Assembly (NCBI GenBank): GCA_944323685.1 | Contig: CALUTJ010000020.1 | Coordinates: 1-50,342, forward strand | Reading direction: 5' to 3' | DNA length: 50,342 nucleotides | DNA from: Candidatus Gastranaerophilales bacterium | GTDB taxonomy: Bacteria > Cyanobacteriota > Vampirovibrionia > Gastranaerophilales > Gastranaerophilaceae | Shown: positions 11,638-30,647 of the stretch, piece by piece | Layout of the letters: every line of letters starts with the position of its first letter | Position numbering within the stretch: the stretch's first letter is position 1 | Translations under genes and position numbers: made by a program | Notes under the pieces: generated by a model | Database searches by the model: none | What the model saw: only the letters and a program-made list of their open reading frames with translations | Told to the model about the DNA's origin: nothing

Positions 11638-12867
11638 TTATACTTTTCTAAATATCAAAGAAGTGTTAATTCCGCCAAAAGCAAAGTTATTCGACATAAC
11701 AGTATCAGTTAATATTTCTCTGCCGTTTTGCTTCTGGGTTATATAATCAAGAGGCGCACATTCATCATCGACATTATCAAGATTTAAGGTCGGACAAAAC
11801 CAGCCGTTGTTCATCATTTTAATAGATAGAATTGCCTCTATTGCCCCGCAGGCACCGAGAGTGTGCCCTGTATAGCTTTTGATAGAACTGATGGGGACGT
11901 TCCTTTTAAATACATCATAAGTCGCAATACTTTCTGCAATATCTCCGTTGTGGGTTGCCGTACCGTGTGCGTTTATGTATCCTATTTCATCTGGATTTAT
12001 ACAAGCATCATTTAACGCTCTTTTTATTGCACTACCCATTGTTTCATGGTTCGGGTTAGTTATGTGCGTGCCGTCTGTTGTTGTGCCAAAACCGATAACT
12101 TCTGCATATATTTTTGCACCGCGTTTTTTTGCGTGCTCGTATTCTTCCAGTATCAACGTACCCGCACCTTCTCCTATAACAAGACCGTCGCGGTCTCTGT
12201 CAAATGGTCTCGGGGTAAGTTCAGGACAGTCATTTTTCTGGCTTGTTGCATACAGAGTATCAAAAACAGCTATTTGTGTGGGATGCAGTTCTTCCGCTCC
12301 GCCTGCTATCATAACGGTTTCATACCCGTTTTTTATAGTTTCGTAGGCATAACCTATCCCCATTGAACCGGAAGTGCAAGCAGTAGAAGAAGGAATAAGT
12401 CTTCCCTTTGTTTTAAAATACAGAGAAATATTGACACTCGTTGTCTGAGGCATCATTTTTATGTAAGAGCCGGAGTTTATGCCTTTGACCTTTTTTTCAA
12501 CCTCCATTGTGTAAAAATCAATTATGGAATCTAAAGAACCTGACGACGACCCGTAGCTTACCCCCGTATTTTCAGACGAAATAATTTCATTGCCGAGAAG
12601 TCCTGCATCATCAAGAGCCTGTTCACTGACAACTGTACTCATCAGAGCTACGCGTCCCATTGTCCTTGTTACCTTACGGGTAAAATGTTCGGGCACAACA
12701 AAATCGTGCACTTTAGAGCACAACTTTGCGTTTAGATGTTGATATACCTCATAGGCAGGTTCATATTCAATACAGTTTTTCAAATGCTTAAGCCTTTCAT
12801 AAGCATTTTTTACGCTACAGCCAAGAGGGCTTGCCAGCGCCATGCCGGTAACAACAACTCTTTTCAC
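11638..12867 (-). CDS. apeR: beta-ketoacyl-ACP synthase, ApeR-like
   Basis: This is a FabF-type ketosynthase of 409 residues. The Cys-His-His triad is complete: Cys in SSTACTSGSMG, His in NAHGTATHNGD, His in SYTGHTLGACG. It is the last gene of a - strand operon in the order apeO-P-Q-R known from aryl polyene clusters. ApeR is known as a second ketosynthase of that pathway, thought to act in initiation or lipid-side elongation. It overlaps the apeQ stop by 4 bp, so translation is coupled. Outside this context it could be read as a generic FabF. Confidence 0.85.
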   Translation of the reverse strand: MKRVVVTGMALASPLGCSVKNAYERLKHLKNCIEYEPAYEVYQHLNAKLCSKVHDFVVPEHFTRKVTRTMGRVALMSTVVSEQALDDAGLLGNEIISSENTGVSYGSSSGSLDSIIDFYTMEVEKKVKGINSGSYIKMMPQTTSVNISLYFKTKGRLIPSSTACTSGSMGIGYAYETIKNGYETVMIAGGAEELHPTQIAVFDTLYATSQKNDCPELTPRPFDRDRDGLVIGEGAGTLILEEYEHAKKRGAKIYAEVIGFGTTTDGTHITNPNHETMGSAIKRALNDACINPDEIGYINAHGTATHNGDIAESIATYDVFKRNVPISSIKSYTGHTLGACGAIEAILSIKMMNNGWFCPTLNLDNVDDECAPLDYITQKQNGREILTDTVMSNNFAFGGINTSLIFRKV

Positions 12868-13592
12868 GAATAAAGCCCCCCGTTGACAGAAATTACCTGA
12901 CCCGTAATGTATGATGCATCATCACACATAAGGTAGTTAACAAGGCTTGCAACTTCCTTACAAGTGCCCATACGGCGCATCGGGATGAGCTTTTTGACTT
13001 CATCAACGGGTAAATCTTTTGTCATATCAGATTCTATAACACCGGGAGCAACACAGTTAACAGTTATTCCTCTTTTGGCAAGTTCAAGGCTCAATGCTTT
13101 GGTTGCACCGATAATACCGGCTTTAGAGGCACTGTAGTTTACCTGTCCGCGATTGCCTCTTAAACCCGAAATTGATGATAAAGTAACGATTCTTCCTTTA
13201 ACTCTTTCTTCAATCATTGGCATAATAACCGGTTTTAGCACGTTATAAAAACTGCCGAGGTTTGTGTCTATAACGTCATCCCACTCTGTTTCTGTCATAA
13301 TCGGAAAGACGTTATCTCTTGCAATGCCGGCGTTGAGTACGACCCCAAAATAAACGCCGTTTTGTTTAATATCATTTTCAAGAGCTTCAAAACTTTTTTT
13401 GCGGTCTTTTACGTCAAATTGCAGAATCCTTGCTTTTTGTCCGACAGCTTCAATTTGTTTTTGAACCTCCTGTGCTTTTTCAATGTTATTTCTACAGTGC
13501 AAAACAATGTCATAGCCGTTGTTTGCAAGATAAAGCGCTATTTCTTTGCCTATGCCTCTGGACGAGCCGGTTACAAGTATCTCTTTACTCAT
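12864..13592 (-). CDS. apeQ: 3-ketoacyl-ACP reductase, ApeQ-like (FabG family)
   Basis: This is a short-chain dehydrogenase/reductase of 242 residues. The cofactor motif TGSSRGIGKEIA is at the N-terminus and the catalytic Ser/Tyr/Lys are seen in LSSISGL and NYSASKAG. The end YITGQVISVNGGL is typical of FabG. It reduces the beta-keto group made by the ketosynthases, using NADPH. It sits between the ApeOP fusion (23-bp gap) and apeR (4-bp overlap). It is probably dedicated to the pathway and not housekeeping FabG. Confidence 0.88.
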   Translation of the reverse strand: MSKEILVTGSSRGIGKEIALYLANNGYDIVLHCRNNIEKAQEVQKQIEAVGQKARILQFDVKDRKKSFEALENDIKQNGVYFGVVLNAGIARDNVFPIMTETEWDDVIDTNLGSFYNVLKPVIMPMIEERVKGRIVTLSSISGLRGNRGQVNYSASKAGIIGATKALSLELAKRGITVNCVAPGVIESDMTKDLPVDEVKKLIPMRRMGTCKEVASLVNYLMCDDASYITGQVISVNGGLYS

Positions 13593-13615: not shown

Positions 13616-15229
13616 CTAAAGTTCAATTTTTGAATTATCAAAATTTTCGGGCTGATATGCGTTAACCACTGCTTTTGCACATTCTATACCATCATTATAG
13701 ATAAAACACTCGAACGAAACAAGTTCATTGTCGCCAAACACTTCTCTTACAATAACTTCATAGTTTTTTCCGTTCTCAAATTTTTCGAGCGAACAATTGT
13801 AAGAGCGGCTGCCAAGAAGAAAACCTATTTTGGGGTCACTGCCGCCGCGTTTAAAATACGAATAACATCCAATTGTTTGAGCCATAAACTCGATACCGGC
13901 AAGCGGAGAAACTCCGTCCATGGCGGCATCATAAAAGACCTTGTCTTTATTGATTTCAACTTGCGTTTTTACGTAATTTTCTTTAAGATTCACATCCAAA
14001 ATTTTATCAATAAGTATCATCGGTGCGTCATGCGGCAAAATTTTGGACAGGTCTGTTTCAAAACAATCGTTCTGCTGCTCTGATGCTTGATTTTTGCCGA
14101 ATATGATAACAGCGTTAGAACCGCCGAACCCGAAAGCATTGCACATAACATAACGGTTATTTTCAGCCTTTTCATTGTGTTTGACGAGTTTTAGCTCCGG
14201 CAGGGTATCATCATAAACCCCGTCAAAATTGTGAGGAATAAGAAATTTTTCTTTGTTAATTTCGTCCTCAAGAAAAGCAAGGCACAATGCGCTTTCCACT
14301 CCGGATGATGCACCGAGGCAATGTCCGGTCAAAGATTTTGTAGAACTGACCGGCACTTTATCTTTGAAAACCTTGTACACGGCATTAGCTTCCATAATAT
14401 CGTTTGAAACAGTGCCTGTACCGTGAAGATTTATATAGTCTATTTCATCAGGCTTTAACCCAGCCTGCTCAAGCGCCTGTGTAATTGCTGCCGCAGCCTG
14501 AGTGCCTTCAGGGTCAGGGGTTGCACCGTGGTATGCGTCAGAGGTTTCTCCGATACCGAGTATTCTTATGCCTTTGTTCACGTCTTTTTCAAGTATAAAA
14601 AGAGCAGCGCCCTCGCCTATATTAATACCGTCTCTGTTCTTAGAAAACGGTTTGCAGTTTGATTGAGACATAACTTCAAGCGCGCTAAAGCCGAATACAG
14701 GAACTTTAGACACAGCATCCGCCGCCCCGCATAAAACAGCATCACAGATTCCGTTTTCAAGAAGTTTTACACCCGTTGAAAAGGCTTTTATTCCCGAGGT
14801 GCAGGCTGTAGAAACTCCGCTGCAATAGCCCTTAAGCCCGAGATGCTCCTTTAAAAATATAGCGGGAGAACCGATTTGAGAATGGAAAACCTCGTGGCTT
14901 TTTTCATATTCGTTAACGCCGGCATTGGTTGTACCAATAACAACGCCGATTCTGTCTTTGCCGTATTCTTTAATAACAGTATCAATCTCATTTTGTATTG
15001 CATTGCAGCAATGCAACAGCAGTGCATTTGTCCTTGTATCAAATTTTGCTTCTTCAATTTTTGGCAGCGCAGCACTAACTTTGCCAAGATAAAGTTTTTT
15101 ACCTTTTATAATATTTTCATCCGGCGTAAAAAAATTTTTGCCCGCCAAAAGCGAGTTTTCAAAAATTTCTTTTACGTTTGTGCCGAGGTCACAAATTGCG
15201 CTGTATGATGTGATAGAAATATTTGCCAT
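13616..15229 (-). CDS. apeOP: ketosynthase-dehydratase fusion, ApeO-ApeP
   Basis: The 537-residue protein joins two enzymes that are separate in other aryl polyene clusters. Residues 1 to about 395 are a ketosynthase with a full triad (Cys in STACTSGIKA, His in LHGTGTVSND, His in SLTGHCLGAS), ending in the usual NAFGFGGSNAV. After a short Asn/Gln/Glu linker, about residues 415-537 are a hot-dog dehydratase with the FabZ/ApeP pattern LPHDAPMILIDK and SPLAGIEFMAQT. The ATG at 15229 is chosen because the ketosynthase fold starts there and a -10 box (TATTAT) lies seven bases before it. The frame stays open upstream, without homology. It is divergent to apeC across 18 bp. Confidence 0.88.
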   Translation of the reverse strand: MANISITSYSAICDLGTNVKEIFENSLLAGKNFFTPDENIIKGKKLYLGKVSAALPKIEEAKFDTRTNALLLHCCNAIQNEIDTVIKEYGKDRIGVVIGTTNAGVNEYEKSHEVFHSQIGSPAIFLKEHLGLKGYCSGVSTACTSGIKAFSTGVKLLENGICDAVLCGAADAVSKVPVFGFSALEVMSQSNCKPFSKNRDGINIGEGAALFILEKDVNKGIRILGIGETSDAYHGATPDPEGTQAAAAITQALEQAGLKPDEIDYINLHGTGTVSNDIMEANAVYKVFKDKVPVSSTKSLTGHCLGASSGVESALCLAFLEDEINKEKFLIPHNFDGVYDDTLPELKLVKHNEKAENNRYVMCNAFGFGGSNAVIIFGKNQASEQQNDCFETDLSKILPHDAPMILIDKILDVNLKENYVKTQVEINKDKVFYDAAMDGVSPLAGIEFMAQTIGCYSYFKRGGSDPKIGFLLGSRSYNCSLEKFENGKNYEVIVREVFGDNELVSFECFIYNDGIECAKAVVNAYQPENFDNSKIEL

Positions 15230-15235
15230 ATTTGA

Positions 15236-15241
15236 TATAAT
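15236..15241 (+). promoter_or_regulatory. -10 box of apeC inside an 18-bp divergent gap
   Basis: A perfect TATAAT ends exactly six bases before the apeC ATG at 15248, which would place the transcript start on the A of the start codon. The -35 region is weak. The opposite strand offers TATTAT seven bases before the apeOP start. The two promoters therefore overlap face to face, and both mRNAs would be leaderless. Confidence 0.6.
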
Positions 15242-15247
15242 ACTACC

Positions 15248-15886
15248 ATGAATGAAAAAAGTGTATTTTATATATCTAACATAAATTTTATTGACGGGCA
15301 AAACGCAGAAAATCTTATTGATTTATCCTTTATGCCGCCTATGACAAGGAGAAAACTCAGCCTTGTGGATAAAGCTGCGCTCAGTGTTATGCACAAAGCA
15401 TACAACGGCAATGAAACAGAAATTGTTTTTGCCTCTCAATACGGAGAACTGGACAGGTTGGATAAAATAATAGCCCAGTATCAGGAGGACAACGAAGTTT
15501 CGCCATTCACTTTCAGCACATCTGTTCACAACTGCGTGGCAGGACAGTTTTCTTTGCTCAACAAAATAAAAAAGAGTTATAACGCGCTTGCTGCCGGAGA
15601 AAACACCTTTAGTGCGGGGCTTTTGGAAAGTCTTATGTGTACACAAAAAGGCCGTGAAGTCTTGTACTGTTTTGCGGATGCTTACAAGGAACTAAAAGCC
15701 TGCGGCTGTGTAATTTCTGCAACTCCGATAAAAGACTCAGTAAAAATCGAATTAAGTACAAACACATGCAGCGCTGCAATTGATGCCGGAAACGAATTTG
15801 AAAACTTTAAAAATTTTTGCGAAAGCAAAACAGACAGCTTTTCAAGCAGCGATAATGTTTTTTCTATTGTCAGGAGTCAATCATAA
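15248..15886 (+). CDS. apeC: beta-ketoacyl synthase-like chain-length-factor partner, ApeC-like
   Basis: The 212-residue protein matches the short ketosynthase N-terminal-like family found in aryl polyene and flexirubin clusters (Ketoacyl-synt_2). I see PPMTRRKLSLVDKAAL, the ASQYGELDRL strand and SVHNCVAGQFSL, where a catalytic Cys motif would be in a true ketosynthase but is not the standard one. In known systems ApeC pairs with ApeO as a ketosynthase/chain-length-factor dimer. Its stop is followed immediately by the apeD ATG. Confidence 0.82.
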   Translation: MNEKSVFYISNINFIDGQNAENLIDLSFMPPMTRRKLSLVDKAALSVMHKAYNGNETEIVFASQYGELDRLDKIIAQYQEDNEVSPFTFSTSVHNCVAGQFSLLNKIKKSYNALAAGENTFSAGLLESLMCTQKGREVLYCFADAYKELKACGCVISATPIKDSVKIELSTNTCSAAIDAGNEFENFKNFCESKTDSFSSSDNVFSIVRSQS

Positions 15887-16630
15887 ATGAAAAGGTTTTT
15901 CCGTGCGTTTGTGGTTGTTTTTTCGTTCGCTTTTTTCGGTGCAGGTTCGCTTGTGCTCGGGCTTGTTGTAATACCATTGATGAGTTTGTTTATAAAAAAA
16001 GAAAACAGACGCAAAGTTTTTTGTCGTGTTGTGCATAACCTCTGGGCTTTTTTCAGCGATTTTATGCAAAAAACAGGTTCTATAAAATTTAACGTAACAG
16101 ACGAACAGAAAAATTTTTTAACACAACTCAAAGGCAGCGTAATTGTTGCAAACCACCCCAGCTACATAGATATCGTGCTTTTAATCGGATTAATACCCGA
16201 CACCTTATGTGTTGTAAAAAATGAAATAAAGAAAAACCCGATTATGAGCAACATCGTAAAATCCACCTACCTTATAAATGATGAAAATAACGACACACTT
16301 AAAGAAGAAGCAAAACACGCACTTTCAGAAGGATATAATGTAATAATTTTCCCGACAGGCACACGCAGTGTTGAAGGAGAAGACCTAAAACTCCACAGCG
16401 GAGCAGCCTCAGTTGCAATATACGCAAATGCGCCTATTGTGCCCGTGCACATAACCTGTGATTATAAATTCCTTGCAAAACACCAAAAAATATACGATGC
16501 AGGCGAAAAGCCGGTTAACTATTACCTGAAAATCAACGAAACAATAAACATTGATGACTTTAAAACTCCGGACATCAATGATATCAAGCTTCGCCGCCGT
16601 ATAAATTCCGTAATAAAAGATAGAATTTAA
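15887..16630 (+). CDS. apeD: PlsC-like 1-acylglycerol-3-phosphate acyltransferase, ApeD-like
   Basis: The 247-residue protein has an N-terminal membrane segment (about residues 7-30) and the two PlsC motifs: NHPSYID (the HX4D pair) and FPTGTRSVEG. The family moves acyl chains to the free hydroxyl of lysophosphatidic acid at the inner membrane. In aryl polyene clusters a PlsC-like ApeD sits at this place, after apeC, and is thought to attach the pigment to a lipid. It starts one base after the apeC stop. cas9 begins 42 bp downstream on the same strand. Confidence 0.85.
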   Translation: MKRFFRAFVVVFSFAFFGAGSLVLGLVVIPLMSLFIKKENRRKVFCRVVHNLWAFFSDFMQKTGSIKFNVTDEQKNFLTQLKGSVIVANHPSYIDIVLLIGLIPDTLCVVKNEIKKNPIMSNIVKSTYLINDENNDTLKEEAKHALSEGYNVIIFPTGTRSVEGEDLKLHSGAASVAIYANAPIVPVHITCDYKFLAKHQKIYDAGEKPVNYYLKINETINIDDFKTPDINDIKLRRRINSVIKDRI

Positions 16631-16640
16631 AAACTCAATG

Positions 16641-16649
16641 TGTTATACT
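16641..16649 (+). promoter_or_regulatory. extended -10 promoter of cas9
   Basis: TGTTATACT fits the extended -10 consensus TGnTATAAT with one mismatch. No good -35 is seen. A start near 16656 would give cas9 a leader of about 17 bases with the AGGGGG ribosome site. It lies in the short gap after apeD, so cas9 can be expressed apart from the polyene genes. Confidence 0.5.
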
Positions 16650-16672
16650 TACCTCATCACACAGGGGGTTGT

Positions 16673-19600
16673 ATGGAAAATAAAAAAGTATTTGCATTCG
16701 ATTTAGGTAAAACAAGTATCGGCTATTGTGCGCGCTGCGGGCATGATATACAAGAGGCGGAATCAGTAATCATTGATATTGATCACGCTGATGCCGCTTC
16801 ATTAAGGGACAGAAGACGAATCTTCAGAACCCTTAATGCTCATAAAGCACGTGAAAAATATTTTGATAAAATATGGCAGGATTGCAATCTTGAGATTTTA
16901 AGCAAAGATGACAAAAAATTCACAAAAGAATTTGCCGCAAAAGGGGATTCTACGATTTATAATTCCTGTCTTTTAAGAATCGCACTTCTTCAAAACAGAA
17001 AACTTGAAATCTGGCAGATATATAAAGCACTGCATAACGCAATGCAGCGCAGAGGGTATGACCCGAATTTAGCATGGAAATCAGCCCAGACAGATGATGA
17101 CAAAGAAAATCTCGAACTTGCTAAAAAATACACACAGGAAAGCGGCGAAGAATTAATTCAAAACGAAAACTACAAATACCCCTGCTACTATGAAGCATTA
17201 AGACTCGGCATGTGGTCAGAGGACTCACCGGACGAATTTAAACCGTTCAATCCACAGCAAAATTTTAACAAAGTACGTGCAACAAACTATGTAGCACCGA
17301 GAAACCTTGTTGAAAAAGAATTAACTGCTCTTTGGACAAACGCTCAAAAACAATTGCCGGAATTGAATAAATATACTCCTGAAGAATTTTTGTACGGCGA
17401 ATACAGAGAAGCCTACGGCTCTTATGTAAACCCTGATTATCGCAAATATCTCGGCAGTGAGCATGATTGGCAGGGTGTGTTAGGGCAGAAAATTCCGAGA
17501 TTCGACAACAGAATTATCAGCAAATGCAAACTTCTGCCGAAAAGAAATGTTTGCAAAGCAAATACTCTCGAAAACGTTACTCTGGTGCTCTTGTTAAAAT
17601 TAAAAAATTTGAGAATAACAAACGGCAGCGGTGATAAAGTCAGACTCAGTCCGTCTGATATAAATACAATTTATCAAAACTGGCTTGTTAAAACAGAAGG
17701 CAGAGCCAATAAACTCGATACAACAATTACTAAAAAAGAAATTGAAGACGTAATCGGACAAAAAATTATAGACAAAATTGAACCTATGAAAGCTGATATC
17801 AGCGGGCGTTCATCTTTTTGCCGCAGAGCCTGTCAAATTATGACAGATATAATCCTCTCGGGCGAATTGTATCCTCAAAATATGGAGGTTTCAAAATACA
17901 TAGACCCACCAAACACAAAAGACGGAATAACGGAAGAAGAAATCCGCACAATGCTGTCTAAAATAGGGGATTGGAATAATCTGTATATACCTGACAACAG
18001 AAATGAAAATGCGGCTGTCGGAGAAAACACAAGAGAGAAAACAGATCTAATGATAGGGGGTATAACCAATCCTGTTGTAAGAAATCGTCTGCAAATTTTC
18101 AGAGATTTGCTGTTCTATCTTGCAGAAAAATACGGAAAACCCGATGAAGTTATCTTTGAATTTGTAAGAGAAGGTGCGGATAACTCACTGTTTGGCAGAA
18201 TCAAAGCCCAGAGTGCCGAATCTTATATGAAAAATCAGGAAAAAGAAAACAACCAGATAAAACAGGAACTCGTTGACGCAAACGCTTTGAGTCCGACAAA
18301 TTTTGAAAAAGCAAAACTATTAAAGATTCAGGGCGGAAAATGTATCTATAGCGGGCAGCCTATTGCAATTTCCGACTTTGATAAATGCGAGATTGACCAC
18401 ATTTATCCGCGGACAATGGGCGGCAATGATGCCTTATATAACAAGGTGCTATGTTTCAGGGCAGAGAACCAGAAAAAACAGGGACGTACTCCTTATGAAT
18501 GGCTTTCCAAAGACAAGGAAATCTGGGCAAATTACGTTAACAGACTTAATGACATAAAAAAACAACTCGGTAAGAAAAAATACGAACTGTTAACAAGCAA
18601 ACCGCAAGATTGTGAAAAACTTATTGAAAGTTATAACGGACTGGCAGAAACAAGTCATATTGCCAAAATTGCACAGCAAATTACAGCGTTTACTTTCGGC
18701 TGGGGCTTGCAGGTGGAAGGCGAAAGCAGACATATCTATGTAAATAACGGTGCTTCAACTTTTGCAATCCGAAAAAGATACGGGCTTAATGCAATACTCG
18801 GCGATGCGGAAAAGAAAAACCGCCAGAACGACAAACACCACGCTCTCGATGCTATTTGTATAAGTTACGCAAGAGAATTTAAGTATGACAAAACTCTGAA
18901 CAAAGACGTTATAGAAGGCTTTAATCCTGATGTTGTAAAAAAGGTTATAGACGGCATAATACCTTATCCTTATGCAAATAAAAAAGCCTTAAAAAGCAAC
19001 ACAAGACCTCTTGAAACAATATACGGAAAACGAATAATCAACGGCAAAGCCTGTATAACAAACAGGGTTACGCTGGAAACGCTTGAACCCAAAGACAAAA
19101 AGGTAAGAAATATAGTTGATGAGGCTATAAAAACAGACCTCTTAAACAAGCTCGAACAAAAACCTTCAACGGATGAGTGGTATAACTACCTTAAAGACTA
19201 TATCCACCCAAAAAAGAAAACAAAAGTAAAAAAAGTTATGATTGTCGTTTCAGAAGGTACACTTGAGCAAGACTCAAACGGACGTGACAGAATCGGAGAA
19301 CACTGCGACTACGGAACAAAAGGCACTAAGGGACAGTTTAAATGCTCAAAAGGACATAAAGGGCAAATACTCTACTACAACGACAAAGGTGCTGTAAAAG
19401 TTATGCCTGTGTATTCCAACAAAAAGACACAGGAAGTGAGAGACAAGCTTGTTGAAATGGGCTGCAAACTGTACGCTGGCGGTCAAATGTTCTACTCCGG
19501 CTGTCTTGTTAATATTCCGAATGACTTTAAAGCCGGCACTGTTACACATCCTGCTGGTGTGTATAAGTTGAGAACAATTAAAACAAATGGGGTTTTAAAA

Positions 19601-19681
19601 TTAGAAAGTAATAACGGAATTGAAATTGATTCAAGTGTAAAAAACCTTACTGATGCAAATTTCAAAAAACATAGTTCTTAA
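16673..19681 (+). CDS. cas9: CRISPR endonuclease Cas9, compact type II-C
   Basis: The 1002-residue RNA-guided nuclease has all its catalytic residues. RuvC: D10 in FAFDLGKTSIGY, E496 in VIFEFVRE, H723 and D726 in KHHALDAI. HNH: H576 in EIDHIYPR and N599 in ENQKKQG; the H-to-N distance of 23 equals that of S. pyogenes Cas9. The arginine-rich bridge helix is at about residues 45-66. The start follows AGGGGG by four bases; a GTG at 16640 lies upstream of this site and is rejected. The size and the cas9-cas1-cas2 order without csn2 or cas4 indicate type II-C. An unusual RCGHD sequence follows RuvC-I. It should be active. Confidence 0.95.
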   Translation: MENKKVFAFDLGKTSIGYCARCGHDIQEAESVIIDIDHADAASLRDRRRIFRTLNAHKAREKYFDKIWQDCNLEILSKDDKKFTKEFAAKGDSTIYNSCLLRIALLQNRKLEIWQIYKALHNAMQRRGYDPNLAWKSAQTDDDKENLELAKKYTQESGEELIQNENYKYPCYYEALRLGMWSEDSPDEFKPFNPQQNFNKVRATNYVAPRNLVEKELTALWTNAQKQLPELNKYTPEEFLYGEYREAYGSYVNPDYRKYLGSEHDWQGVLGQKIPRFDNRIISKCKLLPKRNVCKANTLENVTLVLLLKLKNLRITNGSGDKVRLSPSDINTIYQNWLVKTEGRANKLDTTITKKEIEDVIGQKIIDKIEPMKADISGRSSFCRRACQIMTDIILSGELYPQNMEVSKYIDPPNTKDGITEEEIRTMLSKIGDWNNLYIPDNRNENAAVGENTREKTDLMIGGITNPVVRNRLQIFRDLLFYLAEKYGKPDEVIFEFVREGADNSLFGRIKAQSAESYMKNQEKENNQIKQELVDANALSPTNFEKAKLLKIQGGKCIYSGQPIAISDFDKCEIDHIYPRTMGGNDALYNKVLCFRAENQKKQGRTPYEWLSKDKEIWANYVNRLNDIKKQLGKKKYELLTSKPQDCEKLIESYNGLAETSHIAKIAQQITAFTFGWGLQVEGESRHIYVNNGASTFAIRKRYGLNAILGDAEKKNRQNDKHHALDAICISYAREFKYDKTLNKDVIEGFNPDVVKKVIDGIIPYPYANKKALKSNTRPLETIYGKRIINGKACITNRVTLETLEPKDKKVRNIVDEAIKTDLLNKLEQKPSTDEWYNYLKDYIHPKKKTKVKKVMIVVSEGTLEQDSNGRDRIGEHCDYGTKGTKGQFKCSKGHKGQILYYNDKGAVKVMPVYSNKKTQEVRDKLVEMGCKLYAGGQMFYSGCLVNIPNDFKAGTVTHPAGVYKLRTIKTNGVLKLESNNGIEIDSSVKNLTDANFKKHSS

Positions 19682-19718
19682 ACATTGATTTTTAAAAAAT
19701 GATTATTAAAAACAGAAT

Positions 19719-20666
19719 ATGAGTTATCATATTCTGCATATCACTACACCCGATTGTTACCTCTCAGTTGAGAGGGGGCTGTTGTTTTGCAAAAATAAAG
19801 AAGGCGAAATAAAATCAATTGCCTTAGCGGACATACGTGCCATTATTGTTGCAGCACAGGGCATAGCTTTTTCCAACAACTGTTTGGCACGGCTTTTAGA
19901 AAATAACGTGGTTATACTGCACTGCAACACTTCATACCGTCCCGTAGGTTGGAGCGTACCTTTAGAAAGGATTGTGCGTCCTAAAGTTTTTTATTGCCAG
20001 ATAGAGCAAAACATAGATTTTGAAACTAAGTTGTGGAAAAAGATACTGCTGGCTAAAGTAACAAATCAGGCAAAAAATCTTGACCTTATGGGCTACAGCG
20101 AACACAACCTGTATAACCTGATAAACCGTCCGCTTATGAATGAAGCAAACATAGCAAAACAGTACTGGCAGAATTATTTTGTCGAAATCGGCAACCCTAT
20201 GAAAAGAGAACATCTGGCAGCGGAAACCTTTGAAAACGGCTGTCTTAATTACGGCTATGCTGTAATAAATTCTCTGATTTACCGCTCTGTTATAGTTCAC
20301 GGTCTAATTGCAAGCCTCGGTATTCACCACAAAGGCAAATACAAAAGTACGCCGCTTGTTTATGACTTAATGGAGCCGTACAGGGCTTTTATCGATCATT
20401 ATTTTTATCAATTTGTTCAAGAGTGCGAATTTGATTACGAACAGGAAAATTACAAAGCCTGGTTTAAATACCTGTCAGAATGTATAAAAAATTACAGAAT
20501 AAAAATAGATAACATAAGCTACAAGCTCATTGACACAATAAATATTTACGTGGAAAAAATAGTTGATGCTTATACAAAATTTGATTGTTCAAAGATATTT
20601 TTGCCTGACATAAACGAACAATATCTGCACATAGACAAACACAGGAACAGGGAATATGAGGAGTAA
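19719..20666 (+). CDS. cas1: CRISPR integrase Cas1
   Basis: The 315-residue type II Cas1 joins new spacers into the array together with Cas2. Likely metal ligands are E142 (MNEANIAKQ), H203 or H204 (GIHHKG) and E219 (YDLMEPYRAF), close to the spacing in other type II Cas1 proteins. The N-terminal beta domain (residues 1-80) includes ITTPDCYLSVERG. The gene starts 37 bp after cas9 without a clear ribosome site, and its end overlaps cas2. Confidence 0.95.
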   Translation: MSYHILHITTPDCYLSVERGLLFCKNKEGEIKSIALADIRAIIVAAQGIAFSNNCLARLLENNVVILHCNTSYRPVGWSVPLERIVRPKVFYCQIEQNIDFETKLWKKILLAKVTNQAKNLDLMGYSEHNLYNLINRPLMNEANIAKQYWQNYFVEIGNPMKREHLAAETFENGCLNYGYAVINSLIYRSVIVHGLIASLGIHHKGKYKSTPLVYDLMEPYRAFIDHYFYQFVQECEFDYEQENYKAWFKYLSECIKNYRIKIDNISYKLIDTINIYVEKIVDAYTKFDCSKIFLPDINEQYLHIDKHRNREYEE

Positions 20667-21003
20667 ATATCGTATGGGCTGGCTTGTTGTGTGTTTTGAT
20701 TTGCCTGTTGTGGAAAAAGAAAACCAGAGGCAGGCAAATGCGTTCAGAAAATCTTTGTTGAATCAAGGGTATTTTATGCTGCAAAACTCAATATATGTAA
20801 GGTCTTGCGTAACTTATGACAAAACAGAACAGCACATAAGAAATTTAAAACTCATAGCACCCTCAACAGGTTCAATAGTGGCTTTTTATATAACGGACAA
20901 ACAGTGGGGGCTTGCTGTTTGTATAGACAAGTATGATTATAAACAATCAAAATACAAGAAAAAAGCAGGCGAAAATGCAGAAAAACAGATGACATTCTGG
21001 TAA
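20656..21003 (+). CDS. cas2: CRISPR adaptation protein Cas2
   Basis: The 115-residue protein has the ferredoxin-like fold signature WLVVCFDLPVVEKENQRQA, with the conserved Asp, and the STGSIVAFYITDKQW strand. It is the structural partner of Cas1. The first ATG overlaps cas1 by 11 bp. A second in-frame ATG at 20674 (MGWLVV) stands 9-10 bases behind a GAGGAG and may be the real start. It is the last gene before the array. Confidence 0.92.
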   Translation: MRSKYRMGWLVVCFDLPVVEKENQRQANAFRKSLLNQGYFMLQNSIYVRSCVTYDKTEQHIRNLKLIAPSTGSIVAFYITDKQWGLAVCIDKYDYKQSKYKKKAGENAEKQMTFW

Positions 21004-21039
21004 TTTTAAGGTAGAATATCATTGTAGTGTATTTTGTTG

Positions 21040-21133
21040 AGGTTTAGAGAATGAGTCTATTCGTACAATTAAGCAGAGGAGCAAACTATTCTCTTGTCAA
21101 TTATGATTGGTCTCTTAACTTAAAATATATTAC
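21040..21133 (-). ncRNA. candidate tracrRNA between cas2 and the array
   Basis: The - strand of 21100-21128 is an imperfect complement of the 5' half of the - strand repeat. A lower stem of about nine pairs (one U-U, one G-U) is followed by a small bulge and then a run of about 18 pairs with one G-U. Stem-bulge-stem is the typical anti-repeat shape. A TATAAT on the - strand (21140-21145) would start the RNA near 21133, just before the anti-repeat. Downstream a 7-bp stem AGAGAAT/ATTCTCT (21088-21094 with 21046-21052) can form. No U-rich terminator is obvious, so the 3' end is a guess. The element at 22815 is the rival. Confidence 0.5.
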
Positions 21134-21172
21134 ATTTGTATTATATATCATTTATTCAATTTTGTATATCCT

Positions 21173-22530: not shown

Positions 22531-22545
22531 ACAAAGTTGGCAAAG

Positions 22546-22573
22546 TTGATATTTAAGCCAAATATGTTATACT
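22546..22573 (+). promoter_or_regulatory. promoter of the 22580-22690 RNA
   Basis: -35 TTGATA (22546-22551), 16-bp spacer, extended -10 TGTTATACT (-10 hexamer 22568-22573). The stretch AAATATGTTATA is also the end of the - strand CRISPR repeat, so this promoter may derive from an inverted repeat fragment, or only resemble it because both are extended -10 boxes. Confidence 0.6.
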
Positions 22574-23316: not shown

Positions 23317-23586
23317 ATGGATAATCAAAATTTGAGTCTGGAAGACGAATTAAAAACTTTTATAGTAGAATCATTGGAGCTGGAGGATATCAAGCCTTCT
23401 GACATCGATACTGATGCCCCTTTATTTATTGACGGTTTGGGGTTAGATTCTATTGATGCTCTGGAACTCGGTATGGCTTTAAAGAAAGAATATAAACTTT
23501 CTTTGGGCAGCGACAAAGAAGAAAACAAAAAACATTTCTATTCTGTAAAAACATTGGCTGATTTTATCAGAAACACTCAGGCATAA
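23317..23586 (+). CDS. apeE: acyl carrier protein, ApeE-like
   Basis: This ACP of 89 residues has its phosphopantetheine serine at S45 in LGLDSIDALEL. It carries the growing aryl polyene chain. It is the first gene of the right half of the cluster and is followed after 12 bp by a second ACP, the usual apeE-apeF pair. Most ACPs are acidic four-helix bundles; the Asp/Glu-rich sequence fits. The carrier is probably activated by the transferase at 28823. Confidence 0.9.
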   Translation: MDNQNLSLEDELKTFIVESLELEDIKPSDIDTDAPLFIDGLGLDSIDALELGMALKKEYKLSLGSDKEENKKHFYSVKTLADFIRNTQA

Positions 23587-23598
23587 GGTATTGTAAAT

Positions 23599-23853
23599 AT
23601 GGCAGAATATTCAAGAGATGAAATTTTTAACGTATTAAAAGACATTCTTGTCAATGATTTTGAAATTGAACAGGAAAAAATTTCAGCTGATGCAAATTTG
23701 TTTGAAGATTTAGAGTTCGACAGTATTGATGCCGTTGACCTCGCTGTTAGACTACAGGAATATACAAACAAAAAAATTTCGCCTGACAATTTTAAAGAAA
23801 TCAGAACCGTTGACGATGTTGTTGATGCGGTAGAAAAGCTTCTTGCTCAATGA
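23599..23853 (+). CDS. apeF: acyl carrier protein, ApeF-like
   Basis: The second ACP has 84 residues and carries the modified serine at S42 in EFDSIDAVDLA. Aryl polyene pathways use two ACPs, thought to separate the starter or elongation roles. Its stop overlaps the apeG start by 4 bp (ATGA). It differs clearly from ApeE in sequence, so this is not a recent duplication. Confidence 0.9.
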   Translation: MAEYSRDEIFNVLKDILVNDFEIEQEKISADANLFEDLEFDSIDAVDLAVRLQEYTNKKISPDNFKEIRTVDDVVDAVEKLLAQ

Positions 23854-24286: not shown

Positions 24287-25918
24287 ATGAATCTGTTTGA
24301 TATATTTCATACAAAACAATTTGATGACAAAACTCTGTTCATACACAAAGAAAAAAAATTTTTATTAAAAGAATTTAAAAACTTTGTTGCTTCGGGTGTT
24401 GCGTTTTTAAACACTCAAAAAGCAGATAACGTAGTTATTTTAAGCAGGTGTGCGTTTGATTTTTGCGTGTGGTTTTTCTCGTGTATTTTTGCTAAAAAAA
24501 ACATATTTCTTCTCACAGACAATTCCAAGCTGAAGTATCTTGACTTTGAATACATTGTTGTTGACAAATCACTTCCACCTGCTGAACAGCCGGATTTTTT
24601 TAGGATAGAGCCTGAAAATGTTTTAATAAACTTTTATACATCAGGTTCAACTTCGCAGCCAAAAAATGTGCAAAAAACTCTTGCTAATGTGATAACAGAA
24701 GCTAATTGTCTTTATGAAGAGTTTTTTGCTTTATCAAAATGTGATAATACACAGTTCAGATTTTTAACTTCAACACATCCGCAGCATATGTTTGCTTTTT
24801 CTTTTTATTTTATGCTTCCACTATGCTTTTGGGGTTCTTTTGTGCTTGATACAACAGAAGTCTGCTATCCTGATGACGCGGATTTTAAAGACAGCGTTTT
24901 TATTTCTACACCATCGTTTCTTGAAAAATTTCAAAAATATGAAGTAAAAAACAGTTACTCGCCTTTTCTTATTTTTAGTGCAGGTGCAAAATTAAATAAC
25001 GGACTTTTTAAATATCTTAATCAGTCCGGTAATGTTGTTGATATTTACGGAAGTACTGAAACAGGTACAATAGCTTACAGAAGCTGTAGTGATGATAAAG
25101 ACTTGACTGTTTTGAACAGAGTAAAAATATCAACGGATAATAACTCTCAGCTTGTTGTATCTTCTCCGTTTTTTATTCAGGATTCTGTTACGCTCGGCGA
25201 TATTGTACAGATAAAAGATGACAAACATTTTGTACTGCGTGGCAGGGCTGACAGAGTTTTTAAAATTCAGGAAAAAAGAGTATCAGCTCCGGAGGTGGAA
25301 ACAGAACTTATAAACTCTGTGCCTCATTTGATTCAATCCTGCTGCTGTTTTAAGTCAGGTGAAAAACTTGCGTGTGCAGTTGTGCTGACAGTAAAAGGAA
25401 TCGATTTGTTTTTTGATAAAGGTAATTCAATATTAAAACTTACCTCATTTTTTAAAAACACTTTAAAAGACAGAGTGGAAATTGTTCCGCAAAAATGGAA
25501 ATTTTTGCACGAGCTTCCAAAAACCAAGACGGGTAAAATTGATACAGAAAAACTTGAAAGAATTTTTAAAACCAATATTTCAATGCCGTTTGTTTTCGAA
25601 GTACAAAAAGATTCTCACAGTGCTGTGTATGACTTAACATTCCCTTTTAGCTGCAATTTCTTTACGGGGCATTTTAACGGATTCCCTGTATTGCCGGGGG
25701 TTGTACAGCTGTATTTTGCGCATTTCTTTGCATCAGACGCTTTTGGAAACGGTGTTTCAAATGATTGTGTAAAAAAAATTAAGTTTTCAAAAATTATTAA
25801 GCCTGATGAAAAACTTAAGCTTGTATTTGAAAGAAAAAATAATTTGATAAATTATATGTATAAACGAGATGAACAAATTTGTTCAAGCGGAGTGATGACA
25901 ATAAATGAAAAAGATTGA
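24287..25918 (+). CDS. apeHI: acyl-AMP ligase-dehydratase fusion, ApeH-ApeI
   Basis: The 543-residue protein joins two pathway enzymes. Residues 1 to about 430 are an ANL adenylating enzyme, with the ATP loop YTSGSTSQPKN (around 120), YGSTETGTIAY and the C-terminal GRADRVFKIQEKRVS and KTKTGKID. In the pathway it activates the aryl acid (4-hydroxybenzoate in known cases) and loads the ACP. Residues about 437-543 are a hot-dog dehydratase with the FabA/ApeI pattern FTGHFNGFPVLPGVVQL and its catalytic His. The next gene overlaps its end by 14 bp. Confidence 0.87.
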   Translation: MNLFDIFHTKQFDDKTLFIHKEKKFLLKEFKNFVASGVAFLNTQKADNVVILSRCAFDFCVWFFSCIFAKKNIFLLTDNSKLKYLDFEYIVVDKSLPPAEQPDFFRIEPENVLINFYTSGSTSQPKNVQKTLANVITEANCLYEEFFALSKCDNTQFRFLTSTHPQHMFAFSFYFMLPLCFWGSFVLDTTEVCYPDDADFKDSVFISTPSFLEKFQKYEVKNSYSPFLIFSAGAKLNNGLFKYLNQSGNVVDIYGSTETGTIAYRSCSDDKDLTVLNRVKISTDNNSQLVVSSPFFIQDSVTLGDIVQIKDDKHFVLRGRADRVFKIQEKRVSAPEVETELINSVPHLIQSCCCFKSGEKLACAVVLTVKGIDLFFDKGNSILKLTSFFKNTLKDRVEIVPQKWKFLHELPKTKTGKIDTEKLERIFKTNISMPFVFEVQKDSHSAVYDLTFPFSCNFFTGHFNGFPVLPGVVQLYFAHFFASDAFGNGVSNDCVKKIKFSKIIKPDEKLKLVFERKNNLINYMYKRDEQICSSGVMTINEKD

Positions 25919-26321
25919 AACAACTTATAAAACACAGGTAGAATTTTATGACCTTGACCCGATGAATGTTGTCTGGCACGGAAACTATGTAAAATATCTA
26001 GAGGCTGCACGTTGTGATTTTCTTGCTAAAGTCGGCTGCACCTATGATGATATAAAAAATGCAGGTTATGCTTATCCTGTCGCAAAAATGGAGATGAAAT
26101 TTATAACTCCATGCGAATTTATGCAAAAACTCCTTATTAAAACCGAGCTGGAATCTATTGAACCGTCTTTGAATTTTAAATACACAATTCTTGACGAAAA
26201 AACCGGGGCAAAACTTTTCAGCGCAAAGACAATGCAAATCTGCATTGAAATAGCAACAAGAAAAACAGTATACACCGTACCTGATATTTTGAAAGAGAGA
26301 ATAGATAGCTATGAAAATTAA
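25905..26321 (+). CDS. apeK: 4HBT-type thioesterase, ApeK-like
   Basis: The 138-residue hot-dog thioesterase is of the YbgC/4-hydroxybenzoyl-CoA type: QVEFYDLDPMNVVWHGNYVK holds the catalytic Asp and the conserved WHGNY, followed by YLEAARCDFL. In aryl polyene clusters ApeK probably edits or releases ACP-bound chains. It overlaps apeHI by 14 bp and apeL by 11 bp. A glycosyl/acyltransferase apeJ usually stands before apeK; here no gene lies between. Confidence 0.85.
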   Translation: MKKIETTYKTQVEFYDLDPMNVVWHGNYVKYLEAARCDFLAKVGCTYDDIKNAGYAYPVAKMEMKFITPCEFMQKLLIKTELESIEPSLNFKYTILDEKTGAKLFSAKTMQICIEIATRKTVYTVPDILKERIDSYEN

Positions 26322-26859
26322 AAATATTTTATGCATTGTATTTTTGCTTCTTGTAACGGGTTTAGTCACACTGAGAGCAGACGCAGACAGTATTTTTAAC
26401 CACAAGATAACTGCTAAAGAAGCAGCAAAAAACTTGCCGGAATTTAGCGATACTTCATGCAAATTTTCTCAGGACAAAATAATTAAAAGCAGTGCATCAG
26501 AATGCGTCACCTTAAAATCCAAAGGCAACTTCAAATTTGAAAAAGATAAAGGAGTTACGTTTGAAACCACATATCCCGTAAAATCGGTAACCTCTTATAC
26601 TTCTTCGCAAAACAAACACGTAAGCTCCATTGTAAAAGCACTTGCTAACAAAAACTACACATATCTTGAAAAAAACTTTGATATTTATTTTTTACAAACT
26701 CAAGACAAACTCTGGGAACTTGCCCTGAAACCGAAAAAAGATTCTAAAGCCGCAGCCGCACTAAAGGTCATAAATATTCACGGCAAAAGTAAAATAGATA
26801 AAATGATAATAGACACCCAAAACAGCAAAACAACAATAAACTACACGGATTGCAAATAA
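26311..26859 (+). CDS. apeL: LolA-like periplasmic protein, ApeL-like
   Basis: The 182-residue protein has an N-terminal signal (about residues 1-25) and a LolA/LolB-like fold, seen in CKFSQDKIIKSS, SKGNFKFEKDKGVTFET and the TTYPVKSVTS strand. LolA-type proteins carry lipids across the periplasm. Paired with the MMPL exporter it is expected to receive the polyene lipid. Sequence similarity to true LolA is low, so the call leans on gene order. Confidence 0.75.
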   Translation: MKIKNILCIVFLLLVTGLVTLRADADSIFNHKITAKEAAKNLPEFSDTSCKFSQDKIIKSSASECVTLKSKGNFKFEKDKGVTFETTYPVKSVTSYTSSQNKHVSSIVKALANKNYTYLEKNFDIYFLQTQDKLWELALKPKKDSKAAAALKVINIHGKSKIDKMIIDTQNSKTTINYTDCK

Positions 26860-29045
26860 TGAAAAGCCGCATACTTGATATATTAAGAGTATTATTTGTT
26901 GCAGTAATTTTAGTACTGTCAGTTGTTGTTTTTTTCAACCCTAAAAAGACAGAAACAAACATACTTAAAGCAGTGCTTACGGACAATCAAAACGACAGGA
27001 TTCTTGTTGATTTGAGCAAACGTAATTCCAATAAAATCAATATTATTTTTGAAAGCGATAATTTTGACAACCTTGACAACGCTTACAAAGATTTTTTTGA
27101 CAGGCTGGATAAAAACTCTTTTTATCTTAACGAAACAGAGATTACTGGCGTGCTTGACACCTACAAGAAATATCCTGACAACTTTCTTTCAGATAACACC
27201 CGCAAACTTCTTAAAGAAAAAAACTATGATGCAATCGTACAACAGTCTTACGAAAGATTGTATAACCCTATCGGGCTTACACTTTTACCTCTGGAAAAAG
27301 ACGCATTTCTTCTGCTTACGGATTATATAATCGGCCTCTCTGCACCAAATAGTGCACAGGATGGCGAAATTGACGGTAAAGATTATAAAACAGCAAGCTT
27401 TTATATAAAAAAAGAACTGGCGCTTTCTCCGACTCTGCTTAATGAGCGGATGACGGAGCTTGTTGCGTTAAAAGACTCCGTATCGGACGAAGACGTGAAA
27501 ATCTATATAGCCGGTGCTCCCGTGCATACGTATTATGCAAGTTCCAAATCAATGAAAGAAATTAATCTTATATGTATGCTGTCATCTTTGTTTATTATAT
27601 TGCTTTGCAAATTTTATTTTAATTCGTTTAAGATTCTTTTGCCAATCGGAGCAAGTCTGGCTCTTGCAATGTATTTAGGGTATCTTGTCACCTGTATGTT
27701 CTTTGATTCAATACACATATTAACCTTTGTTTTTGCATCCACACTGATTGGCATTTGCGTAGATTACTGTTTGCATTATTTTGCACATAACAAAGATTTA
27801 ATCCGAATTTTACCCAGCCTCACACAAAGCCTTCTAACAACGGTTTGTGCTTTTGCAATTTTGCTGTTTTCAAACATGGAACTTTTAAAACAGATTTCAA
27901 TATACACAATCACCGGACTTGTGTGCGTTTATCTTGTAGTTGTGCTTTTTTACCCGTTGTTATGCAAAGATATTGAACTCACAAAAATGAAAACACTAAA
28001 ATTTCCGGCTATAGCGGACAAAATAAAATACACAATTATCACTGTTATGGCGATTGTTGCAATAAGCGGGTTGTTCAACATAAAATTTAACGATGACATT
28101 AAAGATATGTATATCCCGCCAAAATCTCTTGCTTCCGCTGAGAAGCTGTATGCACAATTGTCAGGCAGCGGATTCAACCCTGATTTTATAATAGTTAATG
28201 CAAAAGATACACAGAGCCTGCTTGAAAAAGAAGAAACAATAACTCAAAAACTATTTGAAAACAATATAGAATACTATGCCCTGAGCCGTTTTGTTCCGTC
28301 AATAAAAACGCAGAAAGAAAATAAATCACTGGTAAAAAAACTTTATAAAAATTCTTTAAAATCTTATGCAGGTCCTTTTTTGAGTGAAAAAACGATTAAA
28401 GATATTTTAAATACAAAACAAGAACAAAATTTCCTCACACCCGACAATACAAATCTTTCAATGTTAAAAGACTTTTTATACAATGATACAACCTCTGTAA
28501 TTGTTGTTAACGCTGAAAGTGAAAAAGAAAAAGTTATAAAACAAATTGCGAACAAATCAGCTGCAACTTTGATTAACTTAAAAGAAGATATTTCTCAAAA
28601 AGTCGGCAGCTGCCGCAAAGCCTGTCTTATCCTTTTTGCACCGGCTGTTATTGTATTATTTTTGATTTTAGCATTTATATATAAACCTAAAAACGCCTTA
28701 AAAATAATATTTCCTTCATTTTTCGGCGCAATGTTTTCAATAGGGTTAATAGGTCTGTCGGGCAAGGGGTTGAATCTGTTTCATGTGCTTGCTTTGTTTT
28801 TGATAATAGGTTTTACAATGGATTATTCAATTTTCCGTTTTAACGGCTCAAGCAGTTCAAACTCAAAAGCTGCTGTATTGATATCTTGCGCAACAAGCGT
28901 ATTTTCGTTCTTTTTGCTTTCAATGACAAGCTTTAAATTAATAAGTTCGCTTGGTTTTATTCTCTGGGTTGGGCTTTTAAGCTCATATATTTTAAGCGTT
29001 TTACTTATATCACAGTCTTCTTGCGAACAAACACAAAGACAGTAG
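26859..29045 (+). CDS. apeM: MMPL-family exporter, ApeM-like
   Basis: The 728-residue RND/MMPL protein has one membrane helix at about 9-28, a periplasmic domain, a five-helix block (about 235-370), a second periplasmic domain and a second block (about 590-720), as in two-repeat Patched-like transporters. Conserved-looking FASTLIGICVDYCLHY and FLIIGFTMDYSIFRFN carry the Asp residues of the proton path. The ATG at 26859 overlaps the apeL stop (TAATG); a TTG three codons upstream is less likely. Its 3' end runs 223 bp antisense into the transferase gene at 28823. Confidence 0.86.
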   Translation: MKSRILDILRVLFVAVILVLSVVVFFNPKKTETNILKAVLTDNQNDRILVDLSKRNSNKINIIFESDNFDNLDNAYKDFFDRLDKNSFYLNETEITGVLDTYKKYPDNFLSDNTRKLLKEKNYDAIVQQSYERLYNPIGLTLLPLEKDAFLLLTDYIIGLSAPNSAQDGEIDGKDYKTASFYIKKELALSPTLLNERMTELVALKDSVSDEDVKIYIAGAPVHTYYASSKSMKEINLICMLSSLFIILLCKFYFNSFKILLPIGASLALAMYLGYLVTCMFFDSIHILTFVFASTLIGICVDYCLHYFAHNKDLIRILPSLTQSLLTTVCAFAILLFSNMELLKQISIYTITGLVCVYLVVVLFYPLLCKDIELTKMKTLKFPAIADKIKYTIITVMAIVAISGLFNIKFNDDIKDMYIPPKSLASAEKLYAQLSGSGFNPDFIIVNAKDTQSLLEKEETITQKLFENNIEYYALSRFVPSIKTQKENKSLVKKLYKNSLKSYAGPFLSEKTIKDILNTKQEQNFLTPDNTNLSMLKDFLYNDTTSVIVVNAESEKEKVIKQIANKSAATLINLKEDISQKVGSCRKACLILFAPAVIVLFLILAFIYKPKNALKIIFPSFFGAMFSIGLIGLSGKGLNLFHVLALFLIIGFTMDYSIFRFNGSSSSNSKAAVLISCATSVFSFFLLSMTSFKLISSLGFILWVGLLSSYILSVLLISQSSCEQTQRQ

Positions 29046-29511: not shown

Positions 29512-29538
29512 CTTAAGCAATTATGGAGCAAAAAGCAA
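29510..29538 (-). promoter_or_regulatory. promoter of the phosphopantetheinyl transferase gene
   Basis: -35 TTGCTT (complement of 29533-29538), 17-bp spacer, -10 TAAGAT (complement of 29510-29515), then six bases to the ATG at 29503. It fits the leaderless pattern seen at apeE and apeC. It overlaps the start of the divergent gene. Confidence 0.45.
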
Positions 29539-30647
29539 TGCAATCAGAGCGTGAAACCTACAGAAGACAGCGAAAAAATAAAAAATCAAAAGTAGAGGTG
29601 CTTACAGAGGCTCAAAAAATAGCATTTGCGCCGATGACATTTCAGGCACTTGCTGCGTTGATAGATTTTAATATACTGCAAACAATAAGCCAAACTCCGC
29701 TGACAAGAGAAGAAGTTATGCAAAAATGCAACCTGTCAAAATACACTGTGTATACACTTTTTGATGCAGCACTGTACGCAGGATTGATAAAAAAAGATGA
29801 ACAGGGTGCATACAGTGCAACAGACCTCGGTGAGGCTTTCTTGCTTGACCCGATGACAAAGGCAAATTTTAATTTTATAAAAGATGTATGCTACTTAGGT
29901 GCACACGAGCTTAAAGAATCGTTTGCAAAAAACACTCCGGTCGGGCTTCAAAAACACTATATTGATTCAAAAACAATTTATGAAATTTTGCCACAATTGC
30001 CGCAGCAGATGTTAAAAAGCTGGTACGAGTTCGACCATTACTATTCTGATGACTGTTTTGGCGAGGTTTTAAAAATCATGTTCAATCCGAAACCCGCAAA
30101 GGTTTTTGACATAGGCGGAAATACAGGCAAGTTTGAGCGGGCATGTCTTGCTTTTGACGGTGATTGTATTGTTAACATGATTGATTTGCCGCCCAATATT
30201 GAAGTTGCAAAGGCAAAATTTGAACAAGAAAAAGCTGATTTTAACAGACTCAAATTCCATGCGCTTGACATATTAAAACAAGAAAATAATCTTCCGGATA
30301 TGACCGGTTCTGACGCCAAGAACACGATTGTTTTAATGAGTCAGTTTTTAGATTGCTTTTCAGAAGAGCAGATTCTTCATATTTTAAACAAGGTGGGCGA
30401 AAAAATTAACGAGTATACAAGAGTGTATATTCTCGAGCCGTTTATTGATAATCAATTATTCACCGGTGCCGCATATTCACTCGCTCATATATCGCTTTAC
30501 TTTACCTGTATGGCCAACGGATGCAGCAAAATGTACAACGAAGCGGATATGAAAGATATAATTAAAAAATCCAACCTGAAAGTAAACAGAGCTTTTTATA
30601 ATATCGGAAAATATGATTACACACTGCTTGAGTGCATAAAAGCTTAG
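29523..30647 (+). CDS. SAM-dependent O-methyltransferase with winged-helix domain
   Basis: The 374-residue protein has an N-terminal dimerisation/winged-helix part (about residues 35-110; PLTREEVMQKCNLSKYTVYTL) and a class I Rossmann part with the SAM motif VFDIGGNTGKFE near 194-205, then MIDLPPNIEVAK. This is the layout of plant-type small-molecule O-methyltransferases. In aryl polyene clusters a methyltransferase modifies the aryl head group; that is the expected job here. A Lys/Arg-rich N-terminus of ~25 residues is unusual. The acyltransferase gene follows after 18 bp. Confidence 0.8.
   Translation: MEQKAMQSERETYRRQRKNKKSKVEVLTEAQKIAFAPMTFQALAALIDFNILQTISQTPLTREEVMQKCNLSKYTVYTLFDAALYAGLIKKDEQGAYSATDLGEAFLLDPMTKANFNFIKDVCYLGAHELKESFAKNTPVGLQKHYIDSKTIYEILPQLPQQMLKSWYEFDHYYSDDCFGEVLKIMFNPKPAKVFDIGGNTGKFERACLAFDGDCIVNMIDLPPNIEVAKAKFEQEKADFNRLKFHALDILKQENNLPDMTGSDAKNTIVLMSQFLDCFSEEQILHILNKVGEKINEYTRVYILEPFIDNQLFTGAAYSLAHISLYFTCMANGCSKMYNEADMKDIIKKSNLKVNRAFYNIGKYDYTLLECIKA

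Follow-up and report, generated by a model that had tools for sequence, protein, structure and literature searches.

How the discrete enzymes of a type II polyketide synthase (PKS) come to be linked is an open question. It is raised by a gene in the aryl polyene (ape) cluster of a Candidatus Gastranaerophilales bacterium, one of the uncultured relatives of cyanobacteria that live in the gut. Aryl polyenes are pigments with a very wide distribution among bacteria. Does this gene encode the ketosynthase (KS) ApeO continued in frame into the dehydratase (DH) subunit ApeP, as originally predicted from the letters alone, and if so, what might such a fusion do? The window analyzed here is positions 1-50,342 of contig CALUTJ010000020.1, and its features are collected in Table 1.

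Positions 13616-15229 of the minus strand translate as one open reading frame (ORF) of 537 residues plus a stop, with no internal stops. A domain search of the protein finds the KS Pfam families (ketoacyl-synt at 4-215 and Ketoacyl-synt_C at 223-323) and the ApeP-like family PF22817 (397-531) in that one frame. The PF22817 match passes the gathering score, with 61.5 bits against a cut-off of 27. The match to the PRK09185 subfamily, 383.6 bits over residues 1-380, falls slightly below its cut-off of 407. By phmmer, the solved structure nearest to the KS is 6qsp_A (ApeO; E 1e-71), and that nearest to the C-terminus is 6qsr_B (ApeP of the ApeI:ApeP complex; E 3e-15). AlphaFold2 folds the full chain into two confident domains with a mean pLDDT of 90, dropping under 50 only at residues 382-389. 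A fold search with the full chain returns the KS only, and so the DH was folded and searched by itself. The KS reaches its top Z of 57.8 to 6qsp_A, tied with the Acinetobacter baumannii ApeO 7f28_B. The ApeP domain modelled alone has 6qsr_B at Foldseek rank 1, with an rmsd of 2.0 over 144 residues and a Z of 20.6, on which FabZ entries are tied with it. The complete KS with a Cys-His-His triad that had been claimed is borne out: C143, H269 and H303, together with K298, are invariant in all 122 relatives. In fused pairs, dN/dS is about 0.05-0.15 for the KS and the DH halves each, and therefore both halves have been under strong purifying selection after fusion.

Table 1. Features of the ape cluster in the window.
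Feature	Positions	Strand	Basis
ApeR-type second ketosynthase	11638..12867	-	PRK09116, 634 bits (cut-off 470)
ApeQ-type ketoreductase, separate protein	12864..13592	-	FabG2 TIGR01831, over cut-off
ApeP-type hot-dog dehydratase subunit, residues 393-537	13619..14053	-	PF22817; 6qsr_B by phmmer; fold Z 20.6
Glu447 codon (GIEFMAQ), acid of dehydratase site	13889..13891	-	invariant 122/122; aligns with E of 6qsr_B and of E. coli ApeP
Interdomain linker, residues 382-392 (11 residues)	14054..14086	-	pLDDT <50 at 382-389; variable among fused relatives
ApeO-type ketosynthase domain, residues 1-381	14087..15229	-	PF00109/PF02801; PRK09185; 6qsp_A by phmmer; VIA-align Z 57.8
Catalytic His303 codon (TGHCLGA)	14321..14323	-	invariant 122/122
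Catalytic His269 codon (NLHGTGT)	14423..14425	-	invariant 122/122
Catalytic Cys143 codon (STACTSG)	14801..14803	-	invariant 122/122
ApeC-type chain length factor, predicted KS partner	15248..15886	+	PF13723; 6qsp_B (E 1e-10); 7f28_A
ApeD-type lysophospholipid acyltransferase	15887..16630	+	PF01553
Two acyl carrier proteins (ApeE/ApeF-like)	23317..23853	+	PF00550 in both
ApeHI, acyl-ACP ligase fused to ApeI hot-dog tail	24287..25918	+	AMP-binding; ApeI-like just below Pfam cut-off
ApeI catalytic His codon (GHFNGFPVLPG), ApeHI residue 462	25670..25672	+	conserved in 30/30 relatives
ApeK-like thioesterase, LolA-position ORF, ApeM-like MMPL exporter	25905..29045	+	4HBT; MMPL; LolA position assigned by gene order against L138 only
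Methyltransferase (ApeB/FlxJ-like)	29523..30647	+	FlxJ-family, 354 bits (below cut-off 560)

A frameshift that arose in sequencing or assembly and joined two genes, the artifact that the original prediction had itself raised, draws what plausibility it has from the facts that MAGs are drafts and that the two genes are adjacent in relatives. We reject it and give it a negligible chance, because in-frame fusions with different linkers are found in nine genomes from the window's own genus (73-97% identity) and in ten genomes of four other genera, on contigs bearing the names of several different assemblies. The fused ORF stays open at a protein identity of 97% in G017, 91% in G008, 77-80% in G018, G002, G010 and G013, and 73% in G006 and G016. 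Judged by its sequence, 13616-15229 is a genuine single gene for an ApeO-ApeP polypeptide of a predicted aryl polyene type II PKS in Candidatus Gastranaerophilales.

The ApeP half and its partner

The second domain had been described as FabZ/ApeP. The ApeP part of that description stands on PF22817 and 6qsr_B, and the FabZ part falls away, since the FabZ catalytic His is missing. In FabZ, a homodimer, one subunit provides the catalytic His of a site and the other its Glu. The fused domain differs in that Glu447 is present, among the 22 columns of the domain alignment that are invariant, but the FabZ GHF position has no His; the FabZ model PRK00006 scores 22.6 bits on the ORF against a cut-off of 113. 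Taken by itself, the absent His would fit a degenerate and inactive appendage. That is very improbable, however, because the canonical E. coli ApeP likewise lacks the GHF His, the acid is invariant, the domain is under the strong purifying selection noted above, and the His is supplied by ApeHI in every one of the relatives compared (Table 1).

The ApeHI tail matches 6qsr_A with an E of 3e-8, and the ApeI tail is the predicted partner of the fused ApeP domain. The partners named in the original prediction, ApeC for ApeO and ApeI for ApeP, are indeed those found in structures 6QSP and 6QSR, respectively. Since ApeP gives only the acid and the His sits on ApeHI, the fusion by itself should not dehydrate. 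The single site of the ApeI/ApeP heterodimer is known from A. baumannii, where ApeI is also fused to ApeH (PMC8041823). The window resembles 6QSR in its ApeP fold, the acid in ApeP, the GHF His in ApeI and the complementary site that these make; it differs in that ApeP is tethered to a KS and in the acid position of ApeI. That position (window 25712-25714; L139-L168) is Tyr, Asn or Phe throughout the class, and Asp in E. coli and Xenorhabdus doucetiae. Such residues are what one would predict were the His(ApeI)/Glu(ApeP) site the only one in use, and the change fits a decay of the second site, which the heterodimer would leave unused.

ApeO-P is the first gene of a minus-strand group that continues with ApeQ and ApeR. 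The divergent plus-strand group contains ApeC, ApeD, two acyl carrier proteins (ACPs), an ORF in the ApeG position, ApeHI, ApeK, the MMPL exporter and the methyltransferase. The aryl polyene gene set is complete together, comprising ApeC, O, P, Q, R, the two ACPs, ApeHI, the thioesterase and the exporter. In nine fused loci checked, ApeC adjoins the fused gene in all nine, as do ApeQ and ApeR, and the ACPs and ApeHI are present wherever the locus extends far enough on one contig. The counterpart genes of E. coli CFT073 run in one direction, and its apeO and apeP are separate with a 4-base overlap. This agrees with the earlier statement that the two proteins are separate in described systems, as does their occurrence in two pieces in the best plasmid-borne matches among those listed.

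Distribution, linkers and loss of the stop codon

For the survey of relatives that had been proposed, 382 genomes of Candidatus Gastranaerophilales and kin were drawn, and ApeP was found in 126. Both domains are present at 122 loci, 19 of them fused in frame and 103 split, and the fused loci span five genera. In the split pairs, the ApeP match nearly always starts somewhere between a slight overlap with the KS stop and about 35 bases past it; the exceptions are about four loci with a gap of 150-390 bases. At some split loci (L011-L014), KS and ApeP share a frame and are parted by a single stop.

On a tree of the concatenated domains, parsimony counts seven changes of the fusion trait, which makes fusion recurrent and optional. 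The fused clade of the window has nine genomes (support 87), and its sister is a group of three split genomes, with a support of 100 for the two together. Some nodes beside other fused loci are weakly supported, and the linkers of G112 and G161 share repeat-derived sequence (89% identical as DNA), so that six events are safer than seven. The fusion thus appears to have arisen about six or seven times within the class. Close relatives in the window's own genus keep the two genes split, and since the fusion is absent from the great majority of loci, those same-genus sisters included, function does not require it, and it may be neutral. One fused gene, L074 of G239 (genus g13), groups with the g10 gene L045 with a support of 99, the other g13 genomes lying elsewhere; a transfer of the ape cluster is the likely cause of this grouping.

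The linkers of the fused relatives have diverged. Their sequence is not conserved, and their lengths differ by whole codons. In G048 (L019), about three residues separate the KS and ApeP domains, which implies a fairly rigid coupling, at least there. The linker in G161 and G112 (L043, L061) is a copy of a short repeat with 23 matches dispersed in G161 and two in G107. At this junction, the repeat copy lies such that the KS stop is missing and the frame is kept, which illustrates one way of losing the stop codon.

Because same-genus relatives are split and the fusion arose repeatedly, incidental loss of a stop codon between cotranslated neighbors is a serious rival. The exposed KS C-terminus and ApeP N-terminus would tolerate joining, and the tether would be inconsequential. 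The close spacing of most split pairs, the pairs already in frame, the roughly seven state changes with close split sisters interspersed, and linkers free in length and sequence, a dispersed repeat even serving as one, all speak for it. Recurrent gain, close split sisters and unconstrained linkers would fit neutrality as well as they fit selection. On the other side, the nine-genome fused clade has kept its frame open over 3-27% protein divergence and through linker indels, and no fusion was seen in the sampled gammaproteobacterial carriers, though apeO and apeP of E. coli overlap too. We put this rival at somewhat under an even chance.

The gammaproteobacterial sample comprised 369 genomes, 35 with ApeP over the cut-off; the ten best loci were examined closely and the rest by frame length, and no convincing ApeO-ApeP fusion was found among the 35. 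Two long frames, L256 and L263, were rejected as fusions, being GC-rich open frames that overlap the KS in another frame. The fusion was not found in E. coli CFT073. A single-piece match in pSTEC639_1 (H9; L169) was rejected because stops lie between the KS and a frameshifted ApeP; in the ape cluster of this large E. coli plasmid, frameshifts have broken apeP. The 296 Bacteroidota genomes gave no match over the cut-off, and below it only LpxC-FabZ. Since these surveys outside the class are samples, we claim rarity for the fusion there and not absence.

It might also be asked if separate proteins are made as well, or even exclusively, by internal initiation or by proteolysis of the linker. The linker is predicted to be disordered and would be accessible to proteases, and an in-frame TTG lies close to the junction in some fused genes. 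However, no in-frame start codon in the linker is conserved across the fused genes, and no Shine-Dalgarno-like run was found upstream of the candidate internal starts. In several fused genes, the first in-frame start near the junction is an ATG within the conserved PM motif of ApeP, past the N-terminal helix. We consider separate products improbable.

Function of the tether

The arrangement that we favor is a joined complex in which the tether matters. The KS half would pair 1:1 with ApeC and elongate the chain, and the ApeP half would pair 1:1 with the ApeI tail of ApeHI, their interface being the sole dehydratase site with His from ApeI and Glu from ApeP. ApeO-ApeC is a heterodimer (PMC8358021), and the ApeI:ApeP structure 6qsr has one chain of each. 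Since both partnerships are 1:1 heterodimers, the fusion would give one closed ApeC/ApeO-ApeP/ApeI-ApeH particle and would not polymerize.

In each cycle, condensation by the KS would be followed by reduction by free ApeQ, dehydration by ApeI:ApeP and return of the enoyl-ACP to the tethered KS. In the described pathway (PMC8253772, PMC8776678), condensation is followed by the ketoreductase step and only then by dehydration. ApeQ, which performs this step, is still a separate protein, and so the tether cannot pass the KS product straight to the DH. The idea that fusion ties chain extension to dehydration therefore holds only in part: the fusion is real, but it contributes half a dehydratase, ApeQ intervenes, and the trait is not fixed. 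The main effect would be to fix the stoichiometry and to shorten the way of the dehydrated chain from DH back to KS. We give the ApeC·ApeO-ApeP·ApeI-ApeH complex with a functional tether a probability of roughly 0.6. It has the same parts list as the neutral explanation, and the two differ only on whether the tether matters. A bolder and rather doubtful proposal is that the DH heterodimer, each half of it being fused to another enzyme, serves as a dock clamping ligase, dehydratase, KS and chain length factor into one particle, the repeated independent fusions reflecting selection for coupling. If true, an iterative type II PKS of gut bacteria is being stitched towards a multidomain machine.

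The known systems each share part of this. The ApeO:ApeC systems (6QSP from X. doucetiae and 7F28 from A. baumannii) have the KS fold, the triad and an ApeC-type chain length factor next door, but described ApeO stops at the KS fold, where the window KS bears a C-terminal ApeP domain. The ApeH-ApeI fusion of A. baumannii (PMC8041823) matches the ApeHI architecture of the window and its relatives, and it too joins a dehydratase protomer to a pathway enzyme; there, ApeP is free, whereas in the window neither half of the dehydratase stands alone, with ApeI joined to the ligase and ApeP to the KS. FabZ and the LpxC-FabZ of Bacteroidota share the hot-dog dehydratase fold, and the latter demonstrates that a FabZ-type domain can be carried at the C-terminus of another enzyme. 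They differ in that FabZ has both His and Glu and acts as a homodimer, and in that LpxC has no relation to KS. The ApeHI fusion and the single-site ApeI:ApeP heterodimer were already published, and the link between ApeO and ApeP is the new element. We found no description of it in a literature search that extended to work other than the original X. doucetiae reconstitution study (Grammbitter et al.). Since the fusion recurs beside closely related split versions, the effect of linking is testable with natural fused and split orthologues. The fusion also offers a covalent handle to trap the ApeC/ApeO/ApeP/ApeI/ApeH assembly for structure determination.

Further observations on the cluster

A Cas9-Cas1-Cas2 locus lies within the ape cluster at 16640-22560, between the ApeD-like and ACP genes; its repeat array has a period of about 66 bases. 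G017 (L170) and G008 (L171) likewise have Cas9 and Cas1 there; in G008, Cas9 is 97% identical and ApeC only 87%. No match to Cas9 or Cas1 was found in the ape clusters of L175, L176, L177, L180, L181, L182 and L208.

The start codons of apeO and apeC diverge at 15227-15252 and are 18 bases apart. A 26-base stretch spanning both, TTCATGGTAGTATTATATCAAATATG, is identical in 12 same-genus loci, and its flanks diverge. Within it, -10-like hexamers overlap on the two strands (TGATATAAT towards apeC), which suggests leaderless transcription in both directions.
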